Below are positions 51,273 to 53,578 of a stretch of 53,890 nt of DNA, piece after piece. Each line of letters opens with the position of its first letter. The first letter of the stretch is position 1. The stretch is taken from assembly GCA_022340245.1 (NCBI GenBank), contig JAJDOI010000026.1, positions 1-53,890 of the forward strand. Direction: 5' to 3'. Origin of the DNA: Thiogranum sp. (GTDB lineage: Bacteria; Pseudomonadota; Gammaproteobacteria; DSM-19610). The notes under the pieces were generated by a model, which did no database searches, was not told where the DNA came from, and saw nothing but the letters and a program-made list of their open reading frames with translations. Made by a program: the position numbers and the translations under genes.

Positions 51273-52586
51273 ATGCCCCGAAAACTCAATCGCATCCTGG
51301 TGGTGGACGGTTCGGAAGTCGCCCGCACCATCGTTGTTCGTATCCTCAACGAGGAAATGCCGGAAACCGAAATCATCACCTGCGGCACAGTCGCGGAAGC
51401 CTGTGCCTGGCTCGAGCGCAGCCAGTTTGACCTGATTACCACCGCGCTGATGCTGCCCGACAAGGACGGCCTGGAACTGAGCCGCTACGTGCGGGCTTCC
51501 CGACATCATCACTACACGCCCACCATCGTCGTATCCGGGGACGCCGACGCCCGCCTGTTGCGCGAAGGATTCGCCGCCGGGGTTACGGACTATTTCGACA
51601 AGTCGCTGGGCTATCGCGCCTTCGCCGAGTTCATCAAGGATTTCATGCAGCGCAATTCCGGCCTGGTGGGGCGTATTCTCTACGTGGAAGACAGTCAACT
51701 GGCGGCAACCGTACTCATGCGCCTGATGGAGCGTCACGGCTTGCAGGTGATACACACGGCGCTCGCCGAAGAAGCCCTGCAACTGTTACGCGACACCGCT
51801 GCCGGCGGCCCCAAGGAAGACGAAGGTTTCGATATTGTCATCACCGACTTCTTCCTCCAGGGCCACCTGACCGGCGGCGATCTGCTGCACGCCATACGTG
51901 CCCGGTTCCACTATTCCCAGCAGGAAATGCCGGTGCTGGTCCTGACCGGCTCGGAAGCGGACGCAAAACAGGTCGAGGTATTTCACGCCGGCGGCAACGA
52001 CTTTGTCGCCAAGCCGATTGTGGAAGAAGTATTGATGGCACGCATCCGTTCGCTACTGCTGATCAAGCAGCAGTTCGCGGCACTGAAACGTCAGACCGAC
52101 GCCATGCACCGACTGGCAATCACCGACAGCCTCACACGGGTTTATAACCGCCGCTATCTGCTCGATCACGGCGAACAATTTATGGCCAGCCGCAGCAACC
52201 ACCCGGTCGCCGCGGTGTTGCTGGATATCGATCATTTCAAGAAGATCAACGACAACCTCGGCCACATCACCGGTGATCGTGTACTGGAAACCCTCGGCCG
52301 CCTGCTGCTGGACCGGTTACCGGAACACGCCATGGCGGTCCGCTTCGGCGGCGAGGAATTCGCCCTGCTGGTGCCCCGCTGCCAGTCGCGGAACGCCCAC
52401 AACTGTGCCGAGGGGCTGCGCCGCGAAATTGAAGCTCTCGAGCCCGCCGGCGTCACCATCACGGTCAGTATCGGGCTGGCCAGCAACCAGCATCACCCGG
52501 ACATGACGCTGACCCAGCTGCTCAACCATGCCGACAAGGCGCTGTACGCCGCCAAGGCCCAGGGCCGCAACAAAGTGTGTGCCTGA
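51273..52586 (+). CDS. Dual-receiver diguanylate cyclase (REC-REC-GGDEF)
   Basis: Protein of 437 residues. The first receiver (about 5-125) is degenerate: the phosphoacceptor position has Ala58 (DLITTALMLP) and the acidic pair is D12-G13. The second receiver (about 133-255) is intact, with YVEDSQ, the acceptor in VITDFF and KP in FVAKPI. The GGDEF domain has an intact RFGGEEF and no I-site RxxD before it. It should make c-di-GMP in response to phosphorylation of receiver 2. It is similar to PleD/WspR-type proteins. It sits alone between ftsX and rpoH. Confidence 0.9.
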   Translation: MPRKLNRILVVDGSEVARTIVVRILNEEMPETEIITCGTVAEACAWLERSQFDLITTALMLPDKDGLELSRYVRASRHHHYTPTIVVSGDADARLLREGFAAGVTDYFDKSLGYRAFAEFIKDFMQRNSGLVGRILYVEDSQLAATVLMRLMERHGLQVIHTALAEEALQLLRDTAAGGPKEDEGFDIVITDFFLQGHLTGGDLLHAIRARFHYSQQEMPVLVLTGSEADAKQVEVFHAGGNDFVAKPIVEEVLMARIRSLLLIKQQFAALKRQTDAMHRLAITDSLTRVYNRRYLLDHGEQFMASRSNHPVAAVLLDIDHFKKINDNLGHITGDRVLETLGRLLLDRLPEHAMAVRFGGEEFALLVPRCQSRNAHNCAEGLRREIEALEPAGVTITVSIGLASNQHHPDMTLTQLLNHADKALYAAKAQGRNKVCA

Positions 52587-52641
52587 AGCCCCCTGAGCCC
52601 TCATCGGAATCGACCACAGTTCTCTGTATTTGAAGGAACTT

Positions 52642-52669
52642 TTGCCAGGATTAGCACTCTCATTATTCG
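52642..52669 (+). promoter_or_regulatory. Possible sigma-70 promoter of rpoH
   Basis: TTGCCA (52642-52647) and TATTCG (52664-52669) are spaced by 16 bases. The -10 lies inside the spacer of the CIRCE element, so HrcA bound there would block it. Other start sites upstream are possible. Confidence 0.4.
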
Positions 52670-52677
52670 AGTGCTAA
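52651..52677 (+). promoter_or_regulatory. CIRCE element (HrcA operator) upstream of rpoH
   Basis: The sequence TTAGCACTC-N9-GAGTGCTAA is a perfect match to the CIRCE consensus with the canonical 9-base spacer. It ends 34 bases before the rpoH ATG. CIRCE is the binding site of the repressor HrcA, normally in front of groESL and dnaK operons. Confidence 0.93.
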
Positions 52678-52711
52678 ACTTGTGCCAGTTCGAAATGGAG
52701 GTTAGAAAACG

Positions 52712-53578
52712 ATGAGTCATGCTTTGGTCACGACCAGCGCCACGACCCTGCCGGTTCCCAGCGAGCAGCTGGATACCTACCTGCGGGCCGTGTACCGCAT
52801 TCCGGTCCTCAGCGCAGAGCGGGAGTGCGAACTTGCACTGCGCCTGCGTGACCATGACGACGTCGAGGCCGCGCGCGAACTGGTGGTTTCACACCTGCGG
52901 TTTGTGGTGAAAATCGCCCGCGGCTACGGCGGTTACGGGCTACCGCTGGCGGACCTGATCCAGGAAGGTGGTATCGGTCTGATGAAGGCCGTCAAACGTT
53001 TCAACCCGGATGTCGGTGTGCGGCTGGTGTCATTCGCCGTGCACTGGATCAAGGCGGAAATCCACGAATACATTCTGCGCAACTGGCGAATCGTCAAGGT
53101 GGCGACCACCAAGGCCCAGCGCAAGCTGTTCTTCAACCTGCGCAGCGCCAAGCAGCGCCTGGGCTGGTTCAGCCGCGAGGAAGTGGAATCTGTCGCCGAA
53201 GACCTGGGCGTGCCGCCCGAAACAGTGCTCGAGATGGAATCGCGACTCAGTGGCCAGGATGTCGCTTTTGATCCCGCCGCGTCGGCCGAGAGCGACGAGG
53301 AGACGAACTGGTCGCCGTCGGCTTATCTGGCAGCCCCCGCTGCCAGCGACCCGGCGCAGTCCCTCGAACACAACGACTGGGAAAACCGGGTCAGCGAGCG
53401 GCTCCACCAGGCGCTGGAACAGCTTGACGAGCGCGATCGCGTCATTCTCGAACAGCGCTGGCTGAGCGAACAGAAGCTCACGCTGCATGAACTCGCAGAG
53501 CGTTTCGGCGTGTCGGCCGAGCGCATACGGCAGCTGGAAAAGAACGCCATCAATAAACTGAAAAAGCTGATGGATTGA
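52712..53578 (+). CDS. rpoH: RNA polymerase heat-shock sigma factor (sigma-32)
   Basis: Sigma-70 family group 3 factor of 288 residues. Region 2 has [19 protein letters not shown] and region 2.4 [16 protein letters not shown]; the RpoH box [11 protein letters not shown], unique to sigma-32, is present; region 4 has [17 protein letters not shown]. It directs transcription of chaperone and protease genes. ATG 52712 has GGAGG ten bases upstream. A perfect CIRCE precedes it and a strong terminator follows. Confidence 0.97.

Follow-up and report, generated by a model that had tools for sequence, protein, structure and literature searches.

The window analysed here is a stretch of 53,890 bases from Thiogranum sp., toward the end of which lie, in order, ftsY, ftsE, ftsX, a response-regulator/GGDEF gene, and rpoH; ftsE was named from its ATP-binding sequence and its position, with no profile scan. 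rpoH (52712-53578, plus strand) encodes the heat-shock sigma factor sigma-32, a protein of 288 aa that matched TIGR02392 (rpoH_proteo) with 401.7 bits against a curated cut-off of 323.1 in a profile search (E-value 1.8e-120). A Shine-Dalgarno sequence, GGAGG, is seen directly at 52697-52701 of the plus strand. The RpoH protein is 84% identical to that of a relative's record labelled Thiogranum sp., 80% to that of one labelled Thiohalobacter sp., and 78% to that of one labelled Gammaproteobacteria bacterium HyVt-519, these names being the depositors' labels, with Thiogranum and Thiohalobacter both within the Gammaproteobacteria. In E. coli, ftsX adjoins rpoH, whereas in the window the two are separated by the gene for a response regulator with a GGDEF (diguanylate cyclase) domain (51273-52586). 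This gene shows 83-86% identity in two of the three named genus relatives compared (L251 and L243) and was not found in the third (L214). The host genome is assembled as 3.41 Mb in 238 contigs and is 92.42% complete.

A motif scan of the window located TTAGCACTCTCATTATTCGAGTGCTAA at 52651-52677 of the plus strand, an exact CIRCE and predicted HrcA operator whose 9-base arms, enclosing a 9-base loop, have no mismatch to TTAGCACTC-N9-GAGTGCTAA and which is kept in relatives. This bears out the claim of an earlier note on this DNA that an exact CIRCE ends 34 bases 5′ of the rpoH ATG (52712). GGAGG lies in between. It is the sole site in the window within three mismatches of CIRCE, where 0.01 are expected, and one of 100 shuffled windows held such a match. 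A chance origin of the match was considered and is ruled out by the shuffles and the expectation together with the hrcA-linked conservation described below. When the host genome was checked, hrcA was present as a PF01628 match (223.5 bits, cut-off 22.2, E-value 4.5e-66, profile search), and a genome scan returned a second exact CIRCE, the only other one, before groESL. hrcA itself is preceded by a degenerate CIRCE with three mismatches, TTAGCAGTG-N9-GAGTGCTAG (L003 1501-1527, minus strand). Since the hrcA site is degenerate and the groESL and rpoH sites are exact, autoregulation of hrcA may be weaker than control of its targets.

The arrangement recurs among relatives of the host. rpoH was matched at an E-value of 1e-80 in 169 of 186 relatives' genomes, and the upstream set comprises 150 regions from 149 genomes, the 20 genomes with the weakest rpoH matches having been left out. 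With CIRCE called at three mismatches or fewer within 400 bases upstream of rpoH, 123 of the 150 regions carry a site, 71 of them an exact one. A check of close relatives found the site conserved with at most one mismatch in all 15 rpoH regions read from the window's genus, its own included, and in the three read from the same family; in two other members of the genus rpoH was not matched. hrcA, identified through PF01628, was found in 134 of the 186 genomes, and CIRCE precedes rpoH in 110 of 117 cases with an hrcA match in the genome versus 13 of 33 without. The corresponding counts are 96 of 103 versus 9 of 29 outside the window's family (P 2e-11) and 90 of 97 versus 5 of 22 in genomes at least 95% complete (119 rows, a set that leaves out the window's own genome at 92.42%; P 4e-11), where these P values, like those given below, treat genomes as independent and use no tree. 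Outside the window's family, the sampled genomes mostly belong to different families, thus the pattern is not one clade recounted. The earlier note had not taken the arrangement to be common, but it is the rule among the sampled hrcA-bearing genomes.

When the relatives are aligned, the CIRCE arms are nearly invariant, whereas loop positions 4-9 vary freely. The invariance of the arms, together with the fact that sites are mostly gone where hrcA is gone, is a sign of continuing selection. Judged from its sequence, the CIRCE before rpoH is a real and functional-looking predicted operator. The suggestion, made when the site was first noticed, that HrcA may control rpoH is supported by the presence of hrcA and by conservation of the predicted site. 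Seven of the 117 rpoH genes from hrcA-bearing genomes have no CIRCE within three mismatches, and one of these (G131) has a sequence resembling CIRCE with an 8-base loop. CIRCE also stands before rpoH in five genomes of 95% completeness or more (G112, G094, G146, G153, and G035) in which PF01628 has no match; in these, hrcA may have been lost or left unassembled, or the repressor may have been replaced. In one genome of the window's genus (G014:C33:2218-2880), the hrcA match contains one in-frame TGA, reflecting either an assembly error or a broken gene.

The more interesting part of this promoter, overlooked in the earlier note, is the interlacing of CIRCE with elements of a predicted sigma-E promoter. 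A predicted -35 element of RpoE/AlgU type, GAACTT (GGAACTT with the preceding G), lies at 52636-52641 of the plus strand at a conserved offset from CIRCE, and a predicted -10 element, TCTCA, follows 16 bases later at 52658-52662 of the same strand. The first TC of TCTCA closes the left CIRCE arm, and its TCA falls within the CIRCE loop. In E. coli, rpoH is known to be under sigma-E control, which the earlier note listed for that organism; such control is predicted for the window as well, through bases that also belong to the operator. The RpoE/AlgU promoter consensus has been published as GAACTT-N16-17-TCcaA (PMC3247240). The host promoter fits GAACTT-N16/17-TCNNA, and rpoE is present in the same genome (TIGR02939, 319.2 bits, cut-off 236.15, profile search). 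GAACTT-N16-TCTCA (52636-52662) is the only match to GAACTT-N16-TCNNA in the window. This pattern occurred at least once in 18 of 100 window shuffles, and it is therefore weak when taken alone, the stronger evidence being its positional conservation.

A predicted sigma-70 promoter shares bases with the same palindrome. The right CIRCE arm and the three bases that follow it (ACT) form a predicted extended -10 element, TGCTAAACT, at 52672-52680 of the plus strand, and TTAGCA of the left arm (52651-52656, plus strand), 18 bases from the -10, is a candidate for a weak -35. TTAGCA and TAAACT make 8 of 12 consensus matches, and a consensus sigma-70 scan (TTGACA/TATAAT, 16-18 bases apart, threshold 9/12) returned no match. 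The -10 overlap mentioned in the earlier note corresponds to TGCTAAACT, made up of the right arm and ACT; the consensus scan did not report it, and the claim is kept on the strength of its conservation. Of the 123 rpoH CIRCEs, 28 have G in place of A as the third base of the left arm (TTGGCACTC), and two have the mirror change in the right arm. Such an imbalance between the arms would give a better sigma-70 -35 element (TTGGCA).

The features specific to rpoH were brought out by aligning its 123 sites on CIRCE against 26 groES sites. For this control, 42 genomes were searched and 26 of 30 loci were used, the other four having no CIRCE within three mismatches; 14 of the 26 groES CIRCEs come from the window's own family, so that conservation of their flanks appears higher than it would across a wider range of genomes. 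A GAAC box is found with 86 of the 123 rpoH CIRCEs, at offset -15 in 73, at -16 in 10, and at -14 or -13 in three, and is missing from 37, whereas none of the 26 groES CIRCEs has GAAC at -15 or -16. At loop position 3, A is found in 92 of 123 rpoH CIRCEs versus 2 of 26 groES CIRCEs. The rpoH loop starts with T, then A or C, then A, which with the TC of the left arm gives TCNNA 16 bases past GAACTT. Likewise, T occupies position 6 of the -10 hexamer, three bases past the right arm, in 113 of 123 rpoH CIRCEs versus 3 of 26 groES CIRCEs, completing TGCTAAAAT, TGCTAAACT, or a similar candidate extended -10, with TAAAAT (51/123) as the commonest hexamer at rpoH. Outside the window's family, loop-3 A, the -10 T, and the GAAC box occur in 75, 95, and 68 of 105 rpoH CIRCEs and in 2, 3, and 0 of 12 groES CIRCEs, respectively. 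The commonest groES form has the loop ACT with CTATTA upstream, in contrast to the T-[AC]-A loop, upstream GGAACTT, and downstream AAT at rpoH.

The two sigma-E elements vary together, and they vary with the sigma factor. Loop-3 A is present in 76 of 86 rpoH CIRCEs with a GAAC box versus 16 of 37 without (P 4e-7), and outside the window's family in 59 of 68 versus 16 of 37 (P 8e-6), so this loop base follows the predicted sigma-E promoter. The box itself accompanies 84 of 108 CIRCE-bearing rpoH genes of rpoE-bearing genomes versus 2 of the remaining 15 (P 2e-6), where rpoE was called at an E-value of 1e-40 and 12 of the 143 genomes counted fell below the family's curated cut-off. Both carriers of the box lacking an rpoE match (G002, listed as 99% complete, and G011) belong to the window's genus, and their rpoE was perhaps unassembled or missed. 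In the last 250 bases before rpoH, GAAC[TC]-N15-18-TCNNA is found in 92 of 123 regions with CIRCE and in 10 of 27 without, whereas the reverse complement is found in 2 and 0, respectively, and shuffles give means of 3.5 and 0.62. Some of the 10 CIRCE-less matches sit far upstream, and at least two of them (G096 and G131) are in regions with a sequence resembling CIRCE with a small insertion or deletion.

We propose that the palindrome is an HrcA operator within the rpoH promoter that represses both predicted promoters and gates sigma-32 by chaperone load, a reading to which we assign a probability of roughly 0.8. The operator would overlap the predicted sigma-E promoter in its -10 and start region and would span the predicted sigma-70 promoter from -35 to -10. 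From the usual distances between -10 and start, transcription is predicted to begin at about 52668-52670 (sigma-E) and at 52687 (sigma-70). In other bacteria, HrcA requires free GroEL to be active. As long as the cells are unstressed and free GroEL maintains HrcA activity, the repressor would keep both polymerases off, and the supply of sigma-32 would be low. Once GroEL is taken up by misfolded protein in the cytoplasm, HrcA would release the operator and rpoH would be transcribed, at a basal level by the sigma-70 polymerase and more strongly by the sigma-E polymerase if the envelope were also stressed. Newly made GroEL would then restore HrcA and close the loop. What the sequences show is the site and its conservation, its link to hrcA, and sigma-E elements that are interlaced with it in a near-fixed register and linked to rpoE; binding of HrcA, repression of each promoter, and feedback through GroEL, which is known for HrcA elsewhere, are inferred.

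An unlikely but still appreciable alternative is that HrcA controls the sigma-70 promoter only and that the sigma-E polymerase out-competes or ignores it, so that the two inputs act in parallel, as an OR. Of the two marks, the extended -10 that overlaps the right arm is indeed the more widespread, with T in 113 of 123 sites versus the sigma-E box in 86. However, the operator contains the sigma-E -10 and the predicted start, at a register that is fixed in 73 of 123 sites and one base further in 10, and the simplest assumption is that bound HrcA would occlude them. It is improbable, in our estimate, that CIRCE is a relic to which HrcA binds with little effect, rpoH levels being set mainly by translation and by the stability of sigma-32. 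In E. coli, control of sigma-32 is exerted mostly after transcription, and the site is kept in 5 of 22 rows of near-complete genomes without an hrcA match, both of which would agree with such a relic; the near-invariant arms beside freely varying loop positions 4-9, and the absence of most sites where hrcA is absent, argue against it.

Less probable still is that the palindrome acts within the leader of the rpoH mRNA, by forming a hairpin or sensing temperature, and not as a DNA operator. It is a perfect inverted repeat close to the start codon, and E. coli rpoH mRNA contains a thermosensor. Yet a hairpin role would require neither the agreement of the arms with the CIRCE consensus nor their occurrence together with hrcA, and because the predicted starts lie inside or past CIRCE, the left arm would be outside both RNAs. 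When the predicted mRNA starting at 52668 was folded, it showed no advantage over shuffled sequences (z -0.30), and the leader hairpin or thermosensor was rejected as unsupported, though thermosensing of the E. coli kind within the coding region may still occur.

The rpoH site has the same operator sequence and repressor as the CIRCEs of groESL and hrcA-grpE-dnaKJ, but those serve chaperones, whereas the target here is a positive regulator. At E. coli rpoH, the upstream region contains GAACTT-N16-TCTGA, which has the same GAACTT-N16-TCNNA form and is called P3, but this sigma-E promoter is farther from the rpoH ATG than that of the window. Nothing closer than seven mismatches to CIRCE was found in the 700 bases tested upstream of E. 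coli rpoH, and HrcA had no match in E. coli, which served as a control of the profile search. As early as 2004, rpoH of Geobacter sulfurreducens was predicted to have a CIRCE upstream (PMC545781, Table 8), and control of rpoH by HrcA is therefore not a new idea. That case resembles the present one in that the site (position -51) is exact and the genome contains hrcA, but it concerns another class and an in silico prediction only, and the pertinent parts of that source mention no overlap of CIRCE with a sigma-E promoter (PMC545781). A search of open-licence full texts returned no recognised account of the interlacing of CIRCE with sigma-E elements or of a family-wide pattern. Permina and Gelfand (2003) may reportedly already list rpoH CIRCEs in beta- and gammaproteobacteria, and Ueki and Lovley (2007) are said to have studied the RpoH of Geobacter.

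In named genomes, the composite GAACTT-N9-CIRCE occurs in at least 118 stretches from beta and gamma lineages, with Alcanivorax, Thioalkalivibrio, Methylovulum, Rhodocyclaceae, Chitinilyticum, Limnobacter, and Arenimonas among the matches listed. rpoH lies downstream on the same strand in 114 of the 118 matches listed; in three of the others, the sequence stops 156-200 bases past the match, and in the remaining one (L305), CIRCE precedes an rpoH on the opposite strand. In L305, GAACTT is accordingly misplaced, and its match appears accidental. Among the matches listed, the composite is thus nearly restricted to rpoH. In a species-weighted sample of the phylum, it was found in 7 of 398 genomes, a lower bound since the pattern required GAAC at a fixed offset and a near-exact CIRCE with no mismatches allowed; these were 7 of 137 in the window's own class and 0 of 261 in other classes. 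Counted by species, the composite is thus a minority pattern; it is frequent only when families are counted.

Heat-shock control is commonly presented as a choice between positive control by sigma-32, as in E. coli, and negative control by HrcA, as in Bacillus. Here the negative regulator appears seated on the gene of the positive regulator in many families of a class and would share bases with an envelope-stress promoter. If this holds, the signals of two stress sensors converge on a few dozen base pairs, and E. coli provides a model of a special case. We tentatively suggest, at somewhat less than even odds, that most hrcA-bearing families of Gammaproteobacteria (in the GTDB sense, beta lineages included) have a composite rpoH promoter in which one HrcA operator covers the sigma-E and sigma-70 starts, so that chaperone load vetoes or permits the envelope input, and that the wiring of E. 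coli, with sigma-E but no HrcA, is a remnant left after loss of hrcA.

In one genome (G091; L323, G091:C8:47600-49400, 255-296), the composite stands before a ClpB-like gene. The first 495 residues of its product match ClpB with 835 bits, which is below the whole-protein ClpB cut-off, as a portion of a protein would be expected to score. The rpoH gene of the same genome has no CIRCE within three mismatches, and the sigma-E/CIRCE module may have changed its target in this organism.
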